From Sulfurovum sp. (GTDB lineage Bacteria; Campylobacterota; Campylobacteria; Campylobacterales; Sulfurovaceae), in contig JAMOTA010000030.1 of NCBI GenBank assembly GCA_027068435.1, positions 1-64,000 on the forward strand: a stretch of 64,000 nt of DNA, given 5' to 3'. Below, in pieces: positions 2,996-15,213 of this stretch (position 1 is the first letter of the stretch; each line of letters begins with the position of its first letter). The notes below the pieces were generated by a model, which saw only the letters and a program-made list of their open reading frames with translations, was not told the DNA's origin and did not search any database. The position numbers were made by a program, and so were the translations under genes.

Positions 2996-4141
2996 ATGGA
3001 AACAAAAACAAAAGAGATGATAGAAGTTGCGATACAAGAGAAGAGTGAAGAGGTACTAGAGGTAAGTATAGAAGAGGTAACAGCACTTCAAGATGCACTC
3101 AATGAGCTAGACATTAATGATAGAAATTCTATTATCTACTTTGGCTCTTCTGCTCAAGAGAAGCTAGATGAGATTTCAAATCGTATGATAGATGGTGTTC
3201 AAAACAAAGACATGGGTGCAGCAGGTGCAGCACTCAATGAGATGGTAGCTTCTATTCGTGGTTTTGACATGGAGAAGTTTAACCCTAACATTAAACTAGC
3301 ATGGTACCAAAAACTCTTTGGTGCAACCAAGCCCATAGTGAAGTTCATACAAGAGTATGAAGAGGTTAGAGATCAGATAGATATGATATCTAACAGCCTT
3401 GAAAAACATAAGAGTCAACTCCTTACAGATGTAGTCTCTTTAGACAAGCTTTACGATGCGAACCTTGAGTACTTTAGAAACCTTGAACTTTACATCAAAG
3501 CTGGAGAGACAAAGCTAGAGGAGCTTGAAGAGAGTATTATTCCTAGTTTTGAAGCAAAGGCACAAGACAAGGATATGCTTGCTATCCAAGAGGTAAAAGA
3601 GATACGTGGGTTTAGAGATGAGTTAGAGCGTCGTGTTCATGACCTTAGACTCTCTCGTCAAGTAACTATGCAGTCTCTTCCAAGTATCAGACTTATTCAA
3701 GAAAATGATAAATCACTTATCTCCAAAATCACTTCAACACTGGTCAACACCGTACCTTTGTGGAGAAACCAACTGGCACAAACAGTGACTATCTTTAGAA
3801 GTCATGACACAGCCATAGCTGTTAAAGATGCAGCAGACCTTACCAATGAGTTACTAGAGAAGAATGCAGAGGGGCTTAGAGAGGCGAATATAGAGGTTCG
3901 TACTCAGATGGAACGTGGTATTTTTGACATCGAGAGTATCAAAAAAGCCAATGAGACATTTATCGCTACCTTAGATGACTCATTGAAAATCGCCCAAGAG
4001 GGTAAAGCTGCAAGAGCAGAGGCTTTAGTAGAGCTACATAAGACAGAAAAAGATCTTAAAGATGCACTTTTAGCAGTAAAAGCAAAAGCAGAAGCACTTC
4101 CTGAAGTAACTGCTAAAAGCATAGAAAGTAAGGAGGCTTAA
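2996..4141 (+). CDS. TelA/KlaA-like toxic anion resistance family protein
   Basis: 381 residues, almost wholly helical and charged, with no membrane segment, matching the TelA (toxic anion resistance) family. Family-typical pieces are the SIIYFGSSAQEKLDEISNRM region near residue 45, the segment around Lys/Trp 100, and a Gln/Thr-rich VTIFRSHDTAIAVKDAADLT stretch near 265. TelA proteins were named from plasmid tellurite resistance, but chromosomal copies with XpaC are more general. Excellent ribosome site; the gene ends at the base before the SPFH start. Tellurite resistance itself is not implied. Confidence 0.8.
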   Translation: METKTKEMIEVAIQEKSEEVLEVSIEEVTALQDALNELDINDRNSIIYFGSSAQEKLDEISNRMIDGVQNKDMGAAGAALNEMVASIRGFDMEKFNPNIKLAWYQKLFGATKPIVKFIQEYEEVRDQIDMISNSLEKHKSQLLTDVVSLDKLYDANLEYFRNLELYIKAGETKLEELEESIIPSFEAKAQDKDMLAIQEVKEIRGFRDELERRVHDLRLSRQVTMQSLPSIRLIQENDKSLISKITSTLVNTVPLWRNQLAQTVTIFRSHDTAIAVKDAADLTNELLEKNAEGLREANIEVRTQMERGIFDIESIKKANETFIATLDDSLKIAQEGKAARAEALVELHKTEKDLKDALLAVKAKAEALPEVTAKSIESKEA

Positions 4142-5216: not shown

Positions 5217-6329
5217 ATGAAATTCACTGCTATGAGTTTTACTTGCCCCTCTTGTGGAGCACCTCAAAAATTTTCTCCTACTAAAGGTATGCTTGTTTGT
5301 GAGTTTTGTAAGAGAGAAACAGCCATAGACCCTAAAAATCAGCCCATTATGGAGTATAGTTTTCATCAGGCACTCTCTAACCTTGAAGCCGAGGAGTCTA
5401 AGCCCATAGAAAAAGAGGTAAGTTGTAAAAAGTGTGGAAGTTCTTTCACCCTTACGCCTTACTCTTTCTCTTCTAACTGTCCTTATTGTGATACACCTGC
5501 TATTACAGATTTTGTGCAAGAGTTGACCCCTAAGTCTATGATACCTTTTAAAGTCACACAAAAAGATGCAAGAAGTCGTTTTGAAAAATGGGTAAAGTCA
5601 CGCTGGTTTGCACCTACTGCTTTTAAAAAGTATTTAGATGGTAATGAAAGTCTTACGGGCTACTACCTACCTTACTGGACATACGACAGTGATACAGTTT
5701 CTCAATACACAGGTCTTAGAGGAGATGTTTACTATGTCACCGTTACAAAAACAGTAGTAGAAAATGGGAAACAACGCAATGTACGTGTACAAGAAGCTCG
5801 TACACGTTGGACAGCCGCGTCTGGTACAGCGTATGTAAATTTTGATGATGTCACAGTAGGTGCAAGTAAGAGTGTCTCACGTGCAATTTTAAGTGCATTA
5901 GAGCCATGGGATACTACACAACTTTTACCCTTTGATGAGAAGTATCTTTCAGGCTTTGAAGCAGAAGAGTACAGCATAGGACTCGACAACGGATTTGAAT
6001 TTGCCAAAACAAAAATGTATTTTAAAATAGAACAAAAAATACGCTACCAAATAGGTGGAGATAAACAACAAATCCACTCTGTTAACACCCAATACAACAA
6101 CACAACCTACAAAAACATACTCCTCCCCGTCTGGACTGCTTCATTTAAATGGAATAACAAAACCTACAACTACGCGATAAATGCACTCACAGGTAAAGTA
6201 GTAGGAGAACGCCCCTACAGCCCAACCAAGATATTTTTCGCCATTTTAGGTGCTTCAGGAGTAGTAGGTTCTGTTTTCTATTTTGAAGAGCTAAAGGTGT
6301 GGATAAATGGCTTGATGGTTGGGATGTAG
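5217..6329 (+). CDS. Double zinc-ribbon protein with C-terminal membrane segment (YdjG-like)
   Basis: 370 residues. Two CxxC pairs form one zinc ribbon at 10-31 (CPSCG...CEFC) and two more form a second at about 69-90 (CKKCG...CPYC), both TFIIB/primosomal type. A beta-rich middle with a YYLPYWTYD motif follows, and one hydrophobic helix lies at about 338-355. In Bacillus the comparable ydj operon puts YdjG, a zinc-ribbon protein, next to YdjI, an SPFH protein. The start is 7 bases after the SPFH stop. The 3' end abuts a truncated RhuM gene, so this gene marks the edge of an accessory patch. Confidence 0.7.
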   Translation: MKFTAMSFTCPSCGAPQKFSPTKGMLVCEFCKRETAIDPKNQPIMEYSFHQALSNLEAEESKPIEKEVSCKKCGSSFTLTPYSFSSNCPYCDTPAITDFVQELTPKSMIPFKVTQKDARSRFEKWVKSRWFAPTAFKKYLDGNESLTGYYLPYWTYDSDTVSQYTGLRGDVYYVTVTKTVVENGKQRNVRVQEARTRWTAASGTAYVNFDDVTVGASKSVSRAILSALEPWDTTQLLPFDEKYLSGFEAEEYSIGLDNGFEFAKTKMYFKIEQKIRYQIGGDKQQIHSVNTQYNNTTYKNILLPVWTASFKWNNKTYNYAINALTGKVVGERPYSPTKIFFAILGASGVVGSVFYFEELKVWINGLMVGM

Positions 6330-6354
6330 AAGAGGGTGGAGTAAAATAGTCTAG

Positions 6355-6813
6355 CCCCAAAAACTTTTCAGATATTCGTATATCACGAAGGCGTTTTTGA
6401 AGTTCATCAAAATAGTTCATAGAAGAACCATTTTTAAATCGCTCATCATTTAGTACAAAGCCTTTAGTAATGTACTCTTTAAGCTTATCTTTTGCCCATA
6501 TTCTAAACTTTGTACCAGTAGATGAACGCACTCTAAAACCAATAGCGATAATCATATCAAGACTATAATATGCTACATCATAATTTTTGCCATCAGAAGC
6601 AGTTGTTCGGTAATTCCGAACAACTGCTTCTTTATCTAGCTCTTCCTCTTCAAATATAGCCTTAATATGCTCACTTATGGTTGATTTTGCTTTGCCAAAT
6701 ACTTCACATATTTGAGTTTGTGATAGTCAAATGGATTCATCTTCAAACTTTACATCAACTTTGATATTACCATTATCATTTTGATAAATTAAAATATTAG
6801 AATTATTTGTCAT
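6355..6813 (-). pseudogene. rhuM: RhuM-family virulence protein gene, broken by a nonsense codon and 3' truncated
   Basis: From ATG 6813, one frame encodes the RhuM N-terminal half: a helix-turn-helix-like segment (LSQTQICEVFGKAKSTISEH), then VVRNYRTTASDGK, LDMIIAIGFRVRSSTGTKFR and YFDELQKRLRDIRISEKF. Codon 29 is TGA (6727-6729), exactly where RhuM proteins carry the Trp of the IWLSQ motif, so TGG to TGA is likely. Similarity stops at about 6361; full RhuM proteins run to about 330 residues, so the 3' half is missing. An in-frame reading beyond this is just antisense of the zinc-ribbon gene. Remnant of an accessory gene, probably inactive. Confidence 0.8.
6596..6630. repeat. 15-bp perfect inverted repeat inside the rhuM remnant
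   Basis: GAAGCAGTTGTTCGG (6596-6610) and its exact complement (6616-6630) flank TAATT. On the minus strand it lies in the codons for EAVVRNYRTTAS, a conserved part of RhuM, so at least part of the symmetry follows from the coding sequence. Confidence 0.8.
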
Positions 6814-6910: not shown

Positions 6911-7152
6911 TACCTATGTCTCTTCCCATTAAACTTTACTACCAAGGAGAGTCTAATCTTCTCTTTTGACTCTAGCACCAAAAACTCAAAACCGTCGATG
7001 AGTTCTATGGTTTTTACTAAAGCTTTTTTCTGTTGTAATGTTTTGCTTTTCTCTTGTTCTTCATTTTCATAATACTCTATGCTAGAAGGAATCTTTCTCT
7101 CCATCGCAACCATAAGCTGATCAAAAAACTCAGATGATATAGGATTATACAT
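6910..7152 (-). CDS. Rof-like (Rho-binding antiterminator family) small protein
   Basis: 80 residues. The pattern PISSEFFDQL, a variable charged middle, then IELIDGFEFLVLESKEKIRLSLVVKFNGK resembles small Rof/Rho-modulator-like proteins (an Sm-like barrel that binds Rho) with the general form P-I-x-x-x-F-Y-D...G-x-E-F-L...I-R-L-D. The middle is more Lys- and Gln-rich than usual. ATG 7152 is the only good start, with AGAGG upstream. It begins the short minus-strand chain that ends in the broken rhuM. The family call is from pattern memory and moderate. Confidence 0.4.
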   Translation of the reverse strand: MYNPISSEFFDQLMVAMERKIPSSIEYYENEEQEKSKTLQQKKALVKTIELIDGFEFLVLESKEKIRLSLVVKFNGKRHR

Positions 7153-7288: not shown

Positions 7289-10200
7289 ATGAAACTATCT
7301 AAATCATTAGAGATAATCTACTGTGATACAGAAGTAGGAAAAGAAAGTAAAAAAATATATGAAATCGGTTTAGTATATAAAGGTAAAGAGTTACAAACAT
7401 CATCTTTAGATAAAGCATCTAGTTTTATGACTTTATGTAATTGTGATTTTATTGCAGGGCATAATTTTATAGATTTTGATATAGAGATGATAAAACCTAC
7501 CTCTTTATATATGAAAGTAAAGAATTACCATATCATAGATACCCTGCCTCTATCACTACTTCTTTTCAATGAAAAAACTGTGCATAGTCTGCCTAAAAAC
7601 TATAAGAGTGAAGATGATTTTATAAATGACCCAGTAAAAGACTCACTACTTACAAAAGAGCTATTTGAAAAGATTGAACTTAAGTTTAACTCTTTTAGTC
7701 ATGATATGAAAAATATATTTTATGCACTCTTAAATCAGAGTAAATACTTTAGTGGGTTTTTTCTATATCTTAATTATGAATTTGACTCTTTAAGTAGTGA
7801 TGAGTTAAAAACGCTTATTGTTAAAAATTATAGTAATAAGATTGTAAATTTTGATATCTTAAGTAAAATTATAGAAAATTCCCATGTAGAGTTAGCCTAT
7901 ATCATAGCCCTTTGGAGTTCTCATACTGAGTTGAAATCTCATCCACCAAAAGTACTTTATGACTATCCTAATATCGTAGAGATTCAAAAAGAGCTATGTT
8001 ACGATATAGAGGTTGTTACTCAACAGTTAAGCTCTTTTTCTAAAGAGGCTTTTGGCTTTGGTGACTTTAGAGAGTTTGAGAGGCTTAATGCGACTATTTT
8101 TGATACGCCTACTTTATCTCAAAGAGAAGTGGTAGAAGCTTCATTAAGAGATGAGTCTTTTTTATGTATTTTACCAACGGGTGGAGGTAAAACATTTACT
8201 TTTTGGTTACCTGCTATTATAAAAGCATCATCATATAAGGGGCTTACAGTGGTTATATCTCCACTGCAAGCACTTATAGAAGACCATATAAAAAACTTTA
8301 ATGTAAATGTTGCCAACTACAAAGCTGTAGCGATTAGTGGCTTTATGAACCCCTCACAAAGAGCAGAAGCAGTAGAACAAGTAGTAAATGCAGAAGCAGA
8401 CATACTTTACATTGCTCCTGAATCTTTGCGTTCCAATATGATATTTGGTATACTTAAAAATAGATTTATAGAACGATTTGTTATAGATGAAGCCCATTGC
8501 CTCTCAACTTGGGGTAATGACTTTAGACAAGACTATTACTATATTTGTGACTATATAAAAGAGTTATGTGAGAAAAAGAGTTTTCAAAAGCATATACCTA
8601 TCTCTTGTTTCACAGCAACTGCGAAACCCTCTGTCATAGAAGATATAGAAAAATATTTCCTAGATGGTTTAAATATAAAGTTAGATAAGTATTTAGCTAC
8701 TCCTGAGAGGAAAAATCTAAATTACCATTCTATAGAATCCAATAAAAAAGGTAAATATACAAAGCTTTTAAAAATACTCAATGATAATGAAGGCTCATCA
8801 CTTATCTATATACCATCATCTACAAAAGAGTGTGATAATATAGCTGAACAATTAGCTCTCGATACAGGTAGAAGCGTAAAGTCTTTTCACTCTAAAATAG
8901 AGTCACAAGAGAAAATGGATATTTTAAAAAGATATATAGAAAATGATATAGAGATAATAGTCGCTACTACAGCTTTTGGTATGGGTGTAGATAAACCAAA
9001 TATTAAAAATGTGATTCACTATGAGATATCGGACTCACTAGAGAGTTATGCACAAGAAGCAGGTCGTGGTGCAAGAGACCAAAGTTTAGAAGCGTATTGT
9101 CCTATCCTTTTTGATGAAGATGACTTAGACAAACATTTTGCTACGCTTAATCGTTCTAAACTAACAGCTAGTGAAGTAAACTCCATTTTTAGGGTGATTA
9201 AGAGTTATAAGGGTAAGGAGTTATATAAAACAGCCTTTGAGTTAGCAAAAGATGCAGGATGGGATGTTGAAGATAGCTCTTTAGACTATAGTACTAAAGT
9301 AAAGAGTATATTATTAGAGTTACAACGTGAAGAGTATATAAGTAGAGAGAGAAATAGAGTTAGTTTTTTTGCAGACTCCATAGCTTCAGATGCCATTGAC
9401 AAACTACATAAAAACCTTGAAAAACCTCAATATACTGATACCGATAAAGAGAAATTCTCACGTATACTACAAGCAGTTATAGGTAGAGGTAAAACAGAAG
9501 CTATACAAGTAGATGAGTTGGCATACTTACTTGGTTATCAAAAACATGAAATATCTTTATGCATTAACCAACTCAAAGAGATGGATATCTTAGGTAATGA
9601 AAAGGATTTATCTTTAGAAGCTTCTAAACCTGTTATGGGTAGATTTAAGAGGCTTCAAAATATTGAGATATTTATATTTGATTATCTTGTAGGGATAAGA
9701 GAGAATAGAGTTAGTATGAGAGAGATAAATGAACACCTACACCTTACTAAAGCTATAAGTAAAAATGAGACTGAACTTATAAGGCAGTTAATAAAGAGTT
9801 GGGTAGATAGGTCAAGCTTTATATTTAAAAGAGTAAATAGGCAAAAAGATATATGGTATTTTGAGTTTAAAGATAAAGAGAGTGTAAAATTAGGCTTAGA
9901 TAACAAACATGATATAGCCAATAGATTGTTGAACTATTTTAAAGAGCAACTACCCTCCAATGAAAAGTCTAAAATAGAGTTTTCACTAAACTCTTTGAAA
10001 AGCTATTTAGATTCAAAATATACGCTAAAAGAGATAGATAAAGTTCTGCTTTACTTACATAACTTAAAGAGTATAGCACTGTTAAATGGTAGGTTTATAA
10101 GCTATTCACCTATGAGTATACAAAAAAATGATAAATTGGCATCTAAGAGAAAATATACTGAATATAAAACAAGACTAGAGCCGTATTATAGAACAAAAAT

Positions 10201-12094
10201 TGAGTCTATTCATATTATGGGTGAGTATGCATCTAGGTTGAAGCGTAGTCATGAAAATGCAATGAAGTTTTTAAAAGACTACTTTACGCTTGAATATAAA
10301 GATTTTGTAGAGAGATATGAGCTTATAAAAGAGAAGATAACACGACCTATTACCCAAAATAAATTTGATAAAATCTATAAAGAGATGTCAGATGAACAAA
10401 AGAAAATTATAGAAGATAAAACTACAAAAGCCATGATGATTTTAGCAGGTCCAGGAAGTGGTAAAACTAAAGTGCTTGTACATAAGATAGCATCTCTAAT
10501 CTTAACAGAAGATATCAAACCAGAACAGTTTATGATGCTTACCTTTTCTAAAAGTGCAAAGTGGGAGTTTAAAAGTAGATTAAACTCTCTTATAGGTTCA
10601 CTCTCCTACGATGTTGAGATACAGACATTTCACTCTTACGCATTAAAACTAATAGCAAGAGATAGTAAAGATAAGAGAGTGTTAAATAATTCTATAACAG
10701 AAGCTACAAAGCAGATAGTAAATGGAGATATACAATTACCATATATAGCTGTTTTGGTGTTAGATGAGTATCAAGATATAACTGAAGATAGTTTTGAATT
10801 TGTAAAAGCCATTTATTCGGCAAATAGTAGTGATATGCGTATTATAGCAGTGGGAGACGATGACCAGTGTATAATGGACTTTGCAGGAGCAAATGTAAAG
10901 TTTATACAGAGATTTGAAGATGAGTTTTCAAAAGATGAAGATGAAAAGTCATTTAAAAAATATGAACTTCTTTGTAACTTTAGAAGTGATAAAAATATAG
11001 TTCAATACGCAGATGATTTTAGGCAACATATTAAAGATAAGTATAAAGAGAATAAATTACATGCCAATTCAAAAAAAGATGGTCTTGTAAGCATACATAG
11101 TTGTGAAAATAGTCAAAATTTAATAGAACCAGTAGTAGAGTTTATAAAGCAGAGTGAAGAGAATAATAATGTAGCTATTTTAGCCTACAGTAATGAAGAG
11201 ATAATGCAAATATATTCACTTTTAAAAGAGCATAAAATAGATGCAAGATTTATACTAGATAGAGAAAATTTTAAACTTAAAAATATTGTAGAACTCTATG
11301 AGTTCAATGAGCTTCTCAATAGTTATCTTCTCCAAGTGAAGAGTAAGTACAAAGAAGAGCATTTTGAAAATGCTTTAAATGTTATAAAAAGTAGATACAA
11401 AAATTCATCAAATTTAAAACTCTTATATAAAGTTGTCGATAAATTCTTACTAGAGAGTGATGAGTATTATGTATCTGAGTGGATCTCTTATCTTGATGAG
11501 GTAAAACTAGAGAATTTTGAAGCGTTTGAAAAAGGCATAGTCCTCTCTACTATACATAAGTCTAAAGGGATGGAGTTTGATAAAGTAGTTCTTCTAAATA
11601 GTACTATGAAAAAGAGTGAAACAAATATACGTCTGTTTTACGTAGGTATGACACGAGCAAAGAGTGAGTTAAATATATTTCGTTTAGGTAAATATACTCA
11701 AACCAAAAAAGATTATATTCGTTATTTTTCAGATAAAGATACTTATACCAATAATGTTAAACTTTTTACTTATGTTATGAGTTTGAGTGATATATCTTTA
11801 AGTTATGATTATGAAAAATTTGGAAAAAATAGTAATATTGTTGCAGGTATAAAAGTTGATTTTAACTCAATAAAAAACTTTAATAATTTTGGTATTCTTT
11901 ATAAAGGTAAACCTATAGCAGTTGTATCAAAATTTTTTCAAAAAATCTTAGATAAGAAGTTAAATGAGGGCTTTATATTTGACAATATTTTTATAGAACA
12001 TGTTGTTGTTTGGCATAATAATACAAATAATAAAGAGTTAAAACACCCTTTATGTAAGATTGTAATGAAAAAAAGTACTACTAAAACTATTTAG
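7289..12094 (+). CDS. DEDD exonuclease - RecQ helicase - UvrD-like helicase fusion, 1601 residues
   Basis: Three DNA-processing modules in one chain. The first 130 residues look like a DEDD 3'-5' exonuclease: IYCDTEVG (DxE), AGHNFIDFD, and NDPVKDSLLTKELF supplying the last Asp. A complete SF2 RecQ core follows: LPTGGGKT (295-302), DEAH (400-403), TATAK, and AGRGARDQ, then a winged-helix-like part; the RecQ zinc-site Cys residues are not evident. An SF1A UvrD-type core follows: AGPGSGKT (1053-1060), DEYQD (1159-1163), GDDDQCIMDFAG, NFRSD, HKSKGMEFD and RLFYVGMTRAK (from 1448). About 140 residues of unknown type end the protein. Neither ATPase motor shows a lost motif. It is single-gene, beside an accessory remnant, with unusually AT-rich codons. 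Repair, recombination or anti-phage defence are all possible; none is shown. Confidence 0.9.
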   Translation: MKLSKSLEIIYCDTEVGKESKKIYEIGLVYKGKELQTSSLDKASSFMTLCNCDFIAGHNFIDFDIEMIKPTSLYMKVKNYHIIDTLPLSLLLFNEKTVHSLPKNYKSEDDFINDPVKDSLLTKELFEKIELKFNSFSHDMKNIFYALLNQSKYFSGFFLYLNYEFDSLSSDELKTLIVKNYSNKIVNFDILSKIIENSHVELAYIIALWSSHTELKSHPPKVLYDYPNIVEIQKELCYDIEVVTQQLSSFSKEAFGFGDFREFERLNATIFDTPTLSQREVVEASLRDESFLCILPTGGGKTFTFWLPAIIKASSYKGLTVVISPLQALIEDHIKNFNVNVANYKAVAISGFMNPSQRAEAVEQVVNAEADILYIAPESLRSNMIFGILKNRFIERFVIDEAHCLSTWGNDFRQDYYYICDYIKELCEKKSFQKHIPISCFTATAKPSVIEDIEKYFLDGLNIKLDKYLATPERKNLNYHSIESNKKGKYTKLLKILNDNEGSSLIYIPSSTKECDNIAEQLALDTGRSVKSFHSKIESQEKMDILKRYIENDIEIIVATTAFGMGVDKPNIKNVIHYEISDSLESYAQEAGRGARDQSLEAYCPILFDEDDLDKHFATLNRSKLTASEVNSIFRVIKSYKGKELYKTAFELAKDAGWDVEDSSLDYSTKVKSILLELQREEYISRERNRVSFFADSIASDAIDKLHKNLEKPQYTDTDKEKFSRILQAVIGRGKTEAIQVDELAYLLGYQKHEISLCINQLKEMDILGNEKDLSLEASKPVMGRFKRLQNIEIFIFDYLVGIRENRVSMREINEHLHLTKAISKNETELIRQLIKSWVDRSSFIFKRVNRQKDIWYFEFKDKESVKLGLDNKHDIANRLLNYFKEQLPSNEKSKIEFSLNSLKSYLDSKYTLKEIDKVLLYLHNLKSIALLNGRFISYSPMSIQKNDKLASKRKYTEYKTRLEPYYRTKIESIHIMGEYASRLKRSHENAMKFLKDYFTLEYKDFVERYELIKEKITRPITQNKFDKIYKEMSDEQKKIIEDKTTKAMMILAGPGSGKTKVLVHKIASLILTEDIKPEQFMMLTFSKSAKWEFKSRLNSLIGSLSYDVEIQTFHSYALKLIARDSKDKRVLNNSITEATKQIVNGDIQLPYIAVLVLDEYQDITEDSFEFVKAIYSANSSDMRIIAVGDDDQCIMDFAGANVKFIQRFEDEFSKDEDEKSFKKYELLCNFRSDKNIVQYADDFRQHIKDKYKENKLHANSKKDGLVSIHSCENSQNLIEPVVEFIKQSEENNNVAILAYSNEEIMQIYSLLKEHKIDARFILDRENFKLKNIVELYEFNELLNSYLLQVKSKYKEEHFENALNVIKSRYKNSSNLKLLYKVVDKFLLESDEYYVSEWISYLDEVKLENFEAFEKGIVLSTIHKSKGMEFDKVVLLNSTMKKSETNIRLFYVGMTRAKSELNIFRLGKYTQTKKDYIRYFSDKDTYTNNVKLFTYVMSLSDISLSYDYEKFGKNSNIVAGIKVDFNSIKNFNNFGILYKGKPIAVVSKFFQKILDKKLNEGFIFDNIFIEHVVVWHNNTNNKELKHPLCKIVMKKSTTKTI

Positions 12095-13664: not shown

Positions 13665-14951
13665 TTAATAACTTACCTTTAGCATTTCATTTGCAGAGTT
13701 TAACAATGATATTATGCGATTAGAGATAAGTAGTTGTAACTTTTTTATAAAGTTTTCTTCATTTTTATCTAAAAGTTTTAAATCTATAGTATGTGTATTT
13801 AAGGCTTTTTGTACCTTATTTGCTATCGTTTTGATGCGAGTAGAAACAAGTTTAGGGTTTAGTTCTGTCTGTTCTGCAAATTCTCTAAGAGGGTAGCCAA
13901 GGATTTTATCTGCATCAAATTCATCTCCATATGCCATAGCCCATTCATGGTCAACATCTTCATGCATGAGTATGCTTAGCATGTCATAGTAGGGTGCTAC
14001 AGAGATACCTGACTCTTTTATGAAAAATGAGATATTTTTACCATGTGCATCAGCATTTCCTATAATGAGAGTGTAAATAGCCCAGTCGAGTAGTTGTAAT
14101 TTTGCAGTAGCTGGGATTTTGCAGAGTTTTGTTATTGTAAAAAGTTTGCTAAAGCTAACACCTTCTCTTACTTCTGATACATCTCTGCTTGACCCAAAGT
14201 TTCGCTCGTATTTGTAAGAAGAAGGTAAGTTTAGTATTTGACAACCATCTATAATGTGTAGGCGTTCTATAGTATGGTTATTATGTACGACTCTATCGAA
14301 ACGTTGTACCATGAGTACAGGATGTTGACCATATTTATGTAATGAGACAGTAGCAACATTTAGACCTGCTTTTTGTGCTAAGGACATACAGAAATATTCA
14401 TTGATGACAATATGTGCATTTTTTTTAGTTTGAAACTTTAAAATATGTGTAGAGCTTAGGTTACCATTGGCTAAACCTAGTATGCCATCTTTTAGAAGTA
14501 TAGGTAGCTTTTCTTGGACTCCTGCAAGACTTAGTCTTGGTTTTTTGTCCCAAATAATGATACTTTTATTTTCTATCTCATCTATGCGATGTGTAAGCTC
14601 CTCTTCTGTAATAGGACGAAAATTTGCAGTGTTGTCATTTTGATGATAACCAAAATGTAATGCACCAGAAGTTTCAAATCCTATGGCTTGTATAAGTCCA
14701 AAAATATTATTTTTAGAGAGATGGGTAAAAGTGGTAAGGTCATCAAGACCTTTTCCTTCGGGCAATAGATTGTCTAAAAATCTTTTAATACTTGTAGATG
14801 AAATAAGCGTATAAAAAGGTAAATGAGGTGATATCTCATAACCATAATCTTCCCAATCTTTAGTGTAACAAAAAGTATAGGTATCTTCTTTTCCCTCAAT
14901 AGTGAGTGTAGCGATGTGTATAGTGTTTAGATATACATCAAGACTATACAT
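13665..14951 (-). CDS. hipA: HipA-family serine/threonine kinase toxin
   Basis: 428 residues from the preferred ATG 14951; a longer frame from 14990 would overlap hipB by 47 bases. It has a HipA N-terminal domain, LSLAGVQEKLP (activation loop region), the VQRFDR kinase segment, the catalytic GNADAHGKN and the metal-binding PYYDML. HipA kinases phosphorylate aminoacyl-tRNA synthetases and stall growth. ATG overlaps the hipB stop by 8 bases, giving the usual antitoxin-toxin coupling. All core catalytic residues look intact. The target cannot be read from sequence. Confidence 0.9.
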   Translation of the reverse strand: MYSLDVYLNTIHIATLTIEGKEDTYTFCYTKDWEDYGYEISPHLPFYTLISSTSIKRFLDNLLPEGKGLDDLTTFTHLSKNNIFGLIQAIGFETSGALHFGYHQNDNTANFRPITEEELTHRIDEIENKSIIIWDKKPRLSLAGVQEKLPILLKDGILGLANGNLSSTHILKFQTKKNAHIVINEYFCMSLAQKAGLNVATVSLHKYGQHPVLMVQRFDRVVHNNHTIERLHIIDGCQILNLPSSYKYERNFGSSRDVSEVREGVSFSKLFTITKLCKIPATAKLQLLDWAIYTLIIGNADAHGKNISFFIKESGISVAPYYDMLSILMHEDVDHEWAMAYGDEFDADKILGYPLREFAEQTELNPKLVSTRIKTIANKVQKALNTHTIDLKLLDKNEENFIKKLQLLISNRIISLLNSANEMLKVSY

Positions 14952-15213
14952 TTGGTGTTTCCCATGGTTCAATGTGCATTTTGATGCCAAGTGTCATCAT
15001 CACCTTTAAAATAGACTCTATACGTACCCCTTTAGAAGCATTTTCTATTTTACCTAGTGTTATAGTTGAGACATCACAGAGCATAGCAGCTGTTTTTCTA
15101 TCTAACTTTTCTTGTGTACGTCTAGCTTTTATAGCTTTACCTATGAGTTCCAAAGAAAGTGTTTGTGTAAGATTTGGTGTGGGTAGGGATTTAATCTGTT
15201 TACCTTTAGACAT
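14944..15213 (-). CDS. hipB: HipB-type antitoxin with helix-turn-helix
   Basis: 89 residues. A Xre-type helix-turn-helix spans about residues 22-78 (IGKAIKARRTQEKLDRKTAAM, then STITLGKIENASKGVRIESI). It precedes and overlaps hipA, so it is the cognate antitoxin and autorepressor. GGAG lies just before ATG 15213. Two near-identical quasi-palindromes sit 57-133 bases upstream and are its likely operators. Confidence 0.9.
   Translation of the reverse strand: MSKGKQIKSLPTPNLTQTLSLELIGKAIKARRTQEKLDRKTAAMLCDVSTITLGKIENASKGVRIESILKVMMTLGIKMHIEPWETPNV

Follow-up and report, generated by a model that had tools for sequence, protein, structure and literature searches.

An accessory exonuclease-RecQ-UvrD helicase fusion with a putatively HIRAN-like C-terminal end, spread horizontally among bacteria: a candidate enzyme of defence against foreign DNA

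Immunity based on helicase-nuclease proteins has several precedents, namely Hna, Nhi, Gabija and Hachiman (PMC13381803, PMC12407980, PMC12278908), of which Hachiman senses damaged DNA (PMC12278908). One of them is Hna, an anti-phage SF2 helicase-nuclease consisting of a single protein, which, like the fusion gene described here, places a helicase and a 3'-5' exonuclease in one chain and is accessory and widespread (PMC13381803). Whereas Hna has a single SF2 helicase and carries a PD-(D/E)XK nuclease at its C-terminus, the fusion combines a predicted DEDD exonuclease with two helicases of different superfamilies, and it is not a member of Hna, Nhi, Gabija or Hachiman. In the open-access literature, no experiment on, or description of, the whole architecture or the DUF2779 defence cassette discussed below was found, an absence that is weak evidence given this coverage. 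New here are the HIRAN-like end, seen by structure only, and an almost invariant Asn in place of a catalytic His.

The gene lies in a stretch of 64,000 nucleotides from Sulfurovum sp., referred to as the window. It is a single intact ORF with an ATG start and without an internal stop (Table 1), in line with the claim of an earlier note, made from the sequence of the window, that exonuclease, RecQ and UvrD parts are joined in one protein of 1601 residues; all helicase motifs are intact. Pfam assigns DEAD and Helicase_C to residues 277-596 and UvrD_N/UvrD_C to residues 1033-1463, and no family to residues 1-276, 627-1030 or 1466-1601. Since the whole frame of 4.8 kb is open in about 40 homologues, we conclude that the fusion is real, and a chance fusion or a frameshift artefact is ruled out. 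Database entries give the protein no other name than "RecQ family ATP-dependent DNA helicase".

Table 1 Coordinates of the fusion gene, its domains and motifs, and adjacent features in the window.
Feature	Position	Strand	Description
exo-RecQ-UvrD-HIRAN-like fusion gene	7289..12094	+	1601 aa
DEDD-fold exonuclease domain, residues 1-225	7289..7963	+	predicted fold, PDB matches Z 10-11; TREX-type profile match E 0.012
exonuclease motif I, D13-x-E15	7325..7333	+	invariant in 24-sequence alignment
exonuclease motif II, GHN57-59 to D64	7457..7480	+	invariant in 24-sequence alignment
exonuclease motif III, N113-x-P-x-x-D118	7625..7642	+	Asn replaces DEDDh catalytic His
RecQ-type SF2 helicase core, residues 277-626	8117..9166	+	Pfam, NCBIfam, conserved motifs
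conserved linker, residues 627-1030	9167..10378	+	without Pfam family; weak helix-turn-helix profile matches
UvrD/Rep-type SF1 helicase, residues 1031-1465	10379..11683	+	Pfam, conserved motifs
HIRAN-like C-terminal domain, residues ~1488-1600	11750..12088	+	model pLDDT 85; structural matches HLTF/Rad5, sequence support none
broken RhuM gene	6190..6726	-	in-frame stop, truncated; Pfam match to positions 1-93 of 252
80-aa ORF	6913..7152	-	no Pfam match

RecQ motifs I, II and VI and UvrD motifs I-VI are conserved across the aligned copies, the main exception being the divergent copy L058. The UvrD-like SF1 helicase is complete as described before, with UvrD_N/UvrD_C and motifs I-VI present, and the ATPase motifs, in which mutations would have spoken against the proposed activity, are intact. 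The RecQ part, which had also been called complete, comprises the helicase core with its motifs and scores above the curated cut-off of NCBIfam recQ_fam (237.9 vs 219.8 bits, residues 277-622), but Pfam finds neither a zinc/RQC nor an HRDC domain in the protein. The NCBIfam equivalog models for true RecQ, PcrA, UvrD and Rep do not reach their cut-offs, and those for RecQ, PcrA and UvrD remain far below. Since these housekeeping equivalogs score so low and the same genome carries a separate RecQ-type frame of 598 aa, we conclude that the fusion is not a core repair gene, a candidate that we also rejected on its patchy distribution. The linker of about 400 residues between the two helicases is conserved, and its sequence profiles returned nothing solid beyond weak helix-turn-helix matches.

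The AlphaFold model of residues 1-285 (pLDDT 87) matches Orn, the E. coli Pol II exonuclease, ExoI, RNase T and a TREX1 homologue with VIA Z scores of 10-11 over 118-150 residues, and Pfam has no match for this domain. When 24 homologues from Campylobacterota, Bacteroidota, Cyanobacteria and Proteobacteria are combined into a profile, TREX-type exonucleases come up as a weak match (E 0.012), and the four acidic DEDD residues, D13, E15, D64 and D118, are invariant in these sequences. On the predicted DnaQ-like fold and the four acidic residues we assign the domain to the DEDD superfamily, as had been proposed, while its extent has to be corrected from residues 1-140 to about 6-160, with some matches reaching 225. 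In the HMMER alignment, the N-x4-D of the fusion sits opposite the H-x4-D of the TREX-type enzymes. The position of the DEDDh general-base His is taken by Asn113. Of 47 readable Campylobacterota copies, 46 have Asn here and one has Ser, and in the multi-phylum alignment Asn is present in 24/24 sequences; the catalytic His that members of the DEDDh subgroup carry five residues ahead of their last Asp is thus replaced throughout that alignment. With a dN/dS of 0.06-0.17 in four pairs, the exonuclease domain is under purifying selection; therefore, the Asn reads as a conserved variant of the family and not as decay. Nuclease activity is predicted. Mutated exonuclease residues had been named as an observation that would count against the proposal, and motif III does carry Asn for His, but the exchange is conserved family-wide and the acidic residues are invariant. 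If this reading is true, the domain has a non-canonical DEDD active site that is open to test.

For the C-terminal end, the model of residues 1464-1601 (pLDDT 85) has its best VIA match in 3k2y (Z 8.3) and also resembles the HIRAN domains of HLTF and Rad5 over about 95 residues (Z 7.0-7.3, where a Z of 7-8 lies within the stated noise of VIA) and the C-terminal part of HamB of Hachiman (Z 6.0). No HIRAN match was found by sequence in Pfam or among PDB sequences, and profiles of the C-terminal end gave nothing solid. Since the matches return repeatedly to one fold, HIRAN-like is the best assignment for the model in spite of Z scores within the noise; the 140 residues that the earlier note had left unassigned thus still belong to no sequence family, but the structure search gives them a putative fold. 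This domain is the fastest evolving part of the protein (dN/dS 0.17-0.55). The HIRAN domain of HLTF recognises the 3'-hydroxyl of single-stranded DNA, whereas that of yeast Rad5 does not need it (PMC7804152), and since the two differ in this respect, a preference of the C-terminal domain for 3' ends is something we infer. If the assignment is true, a bacterial helicase-nuclease would carry a probable HIRAN-like end-binding domain.

The distribution of the gene is patchy. Among the 61 genomes of its own genus covered by the first search, 5 carry it, including that of the window, and one of the five copies is broken by frameshifts; across the Campylobacterota, matches occur in 25 of 397 genomes (about 6%) and 15 of 68 genera, nearly all of them full length. 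In the tree, which crosses families, a fully supported group unites the window copy with copies from two other families, and the topology forces repeated changes of label, from which we conclude that the gene has been transferred horizontally. Full-length or nearly full-length homologues are located on plasmids of Aliarcobacter, Bacteroides, Phocaeicola, cyanobacteria and alpha- and gammaproteobacteria, and weaker matches occur in Deinococcus. A viral origin was rejected, as no full-length match was found in phages and no relative on viral contigs in one scan. Some copies are broken or decayed, while intact copies show strong purifying selection over the whole gene (dN/dS about 0.065-0.15), well below 1, which rules out a decaying gene. 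The gene is accessory and horizontally spread, the combination of gain, loss and functional selection agrees with a defence-like gene, and the consistent core-genome placement beside repair genes that would have argued otherwise was not found. Decayed relatives and larger proteins were observed as well: a decayed relative without its middle, in which an exonuclease piece is followed by UvrD and C-terminal fragments (L249), a small plasmid-like contig on which a truncated exonuclease domain, still with the N-x-P-x-x-D motif, stands alone (L248:7438-8034), and two larger proteins in which RecQ-type and UvrD-type helicases are joined, with long N-terminal parts without assignment (L132:890-9463, 2858 aa; L131:5901-12017, 2039 aa).

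In the window, the fusion is flanked by the broken RhuM gene and the 80-aa ORF on one side and by TcdA-SurE on the other, and the neighbours recognised by Pfam are RhuM, TcdA, SurE and HipA. The broken state of RhuM had been reported correctly, whereas the label "Rof-like" finds no Pfam match in the small ORF. In the relative G033, a homologue of the window gene at 2996-4138 directly adjoins TcdA and the intervening block is missing, and in other relatives the gene next to TcdA differs, which together indicate a variable junction at TcdA. A HipA-like gene (HipA_C, Couple_hipA; 13665-14990) lies between SurE and GreA. Since in most relatives checked SurE is directly followed by GreA, it represents a second insertion near the fusion.

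The surroundings of other copies were compared over 42 loci from a contig profile search, a set biased towards Campylobacterota. Most distinct Campylobacterota copies, including that of the window, are lone genes between core genes and do not reside in large defence islands. In four loci (L063, L074, L097, L106), a DUF2779 gene lies directly upstream on the same strand, at junctions of about -11 to +4 nt with start codons set by a simple ORF rule; the genome of the window lacks DUF2779. DUF2779 proteins are predicted 3'-5' exonucleases, also with a PD-(D/E)XK-like domain (PMC3985635). The DUF2779-fusion pair is preceded by Mre11, Rad50 and either AAA_13 or SIR2_2 plus HerA in one operon in L063 and L074, by SbcC and a PHP-AAA gene in L106, and by an Mre11 remnant and RhuM in L097. 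The record of L074 is titled as a Helicobacter pylori PMSS1 MAG, a label that may be wrong; its cassette, in the order Mre11-Rad50-SIR2-HerA-DUF2779-fusion, is like those of other Campylobacterota. A recurrent Campylobacterota cassette was also seen around DUF2779 itself, consisting of Mre11-Rad50 (SbcDC), variable cargo (SIR2+HerA, AAA_13, OLD/TOPRIM or PHP-AAA) and then DUF2779 (L063, L074, L177, L178, L181, L184, L186, L188), and SbcC/Rad50 lies at most four genes away in 8 of 20 sampled DUF2779 loci; this cassette may be a defence hotspot of its own. In L081, L112, L119 and L130, a small methyltransferase and an HNH endonuclease adjoin the fusion, the two being fused in L119 and L130. The vicinity of the fusion or of DUF2779 also repeatedly contains a dGTPase-like gene (L106, L078, L174, L180, L181). 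Among the plasmid copies, one is next to a type I restriction-modification system, one is near a type I-D CRISPR locus, and others lie beside ParA in Aliarcobacter or near ParA and SSB genes in Bacteroides; transposases are found near several.

Because tallies of Pfam neighbours were too diffuse alone, we used a test based on probes, taken only from DUF2779 loci without the fusion. Over 8 kb or a similar span, 7 of 35 copies had defence-type genes nearby, compared to none of the 40 control regions (p 0.003, a sample of moderate size). The controls were fixed arbitrary coordinates, some in genomes without the fusion gene, and 80% of the 35 copies had no probed defence gene nearby. The enrichment near defence genes that the earlier note had asked about is therefore present. 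The defence role considered plausible there gains from the patchy, transferred, plasmid-borne and DUF2779-coupled occurrence and from this enrichment, while the many lone copies between core genes weigh against it.

Taken together, we think it fairly probable that the fusion is a horizontally spread helicase-exonuclease which degrades or resects the ends of foreign DNA and so acts as an accessory immune enzyme against phages and other foreign DNA. Movement from 3' to 5' on single-stranded DNA is established for the RecQ and UvrD families. In the proposed mechanism, the HIRAN-like domain and the linker would take hold of the end of a DNA molecule or of a single-stranded 3' tail, both motors would unwind the duplex and strip bound proteins in that direction, and the DEDD exonuclease would remove nucleotides from the freed 3' strand, so that linear or broken invader DNA would be destroyed or become unable to circularise and replicate. 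In some genomes, the protein may work with the Mre11-Rad50 pair and with the DUF2779 nuclease coupled to it, for which PD-(D/E)XK and exonuclease parts are predicted. If this is true, the gene would encode an immune enzyme, widespread and often plasmid-borne, that is probably a single-gene system and unites a nuclease and two motors in one polypeptide.

Speaking against defence are the mostly lone copies, the 80% without a probed defence gene, the missing DEDDh His and the fact that the parts would suit DNA repair as well. Since a resection enzyme could be made of these parts too, the main rival is an accessory enzyme comparable to WRN or RecQ-RecJ, which would act in repair or recombination by resecting breaks or restarting forks in the host chromosome and would have spread horizontally because it is useful in damaging environments. 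The WRN-like order of exonuclease and RecQ, the placement of most copies among core genes, the end-processing nature of the recurrent neighbours Mre11-Rad50 (SbcDC) and DUF2779, and the action of the HIRAN domains of HLTF and Rad5 at replication forks (PMC7804152) all point in this direction. However, the gene is patchy, repeatedly lost and in places broken, a housekeeping RecQ is present separately, defence cargo shares the same operons and plasmids carry the gene, and we therefore regard a repair role as rather unlikely.

Plasmid homologues next to ParA in Aliarcobacter or near ParA and SSB in Bacteroides, as well as the transposases around several of them, could also mean that the protein serves plasmids or mobile elements in replication, stable inheritance or survival after transfer, with the chromosomal copies as remnants. 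This is improbable, as core genes of the chromosome, and no mobility genes, surround the window copy and most of those in Campylobacterota, purifying selection acts at chromosomal sites (e.g. the thiC-metE pair G009/G016) and one viral scan found no relatives. The Asn in nearly all copies and the DUF2779 nuclease gene coupled to the fusion at four loci would also suit a helicase-driven sensor, in which the exonuclease domain recognises 3' ends and another nuclease such as DUF2779 cuts. We consider this very improbable: the four acidic residues are invariant, purifying selection acts on the domain, the window genome has no DUF2779, and DEDDy enzymes are active without the DEDDh catalytic His.

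Among models of known defence systems, PADLOC has none of the whole exo-RecQ-UvrD architecture; its GajB models match residues 1031-1478, and profiles of DpdF and PsyrT, RecQ-like cores of defence-linked genes, match within residues 228-660. We rejected these three assignments as cross-matches of single helicase domains, and neither whole-protein matches nor partner genes around the window gene indicated membership in Gabija, Dpd or PsyrTA. Gabija likewise uses a UvrD-like helicase with a nuclease, but its OLD-type nuclease GajA is not beside the window gene and the GajB match covers the helicase domain only; DpdF and PsyrT match in the helicase core only and lack the exonuclease and UvrD plan. 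Hachiman is a further case of helicase-nuclease immunity, and the C-terminal end resembles a part of its HamB at Z 6.0, but its helicase family differs and a HamA gene is absent here. WRN, too, carries a DEDD-type exonuclease before a RecQ core that matches by sequence, but the fusion adds the UvrD helicase and the HIRAN-like end and has no detected RQC or HRDC. The WRN exonuclease is of the DEDDy type with Tyr in motif III, where the fusion has Asn. As a tentative possibility, the protein with its Asn-type DEDD site might be a new bacterial immune machine for end processing, whose full form would have Mre11-Rad50 and a DUF2779 (PD-(D/E)XK/DEDD) nuclease as partners and would correspond in bacteria to the HerA-NurA-Mre11-Rad50 resection complex of archaea, aimed at the ends of foreign DNA.
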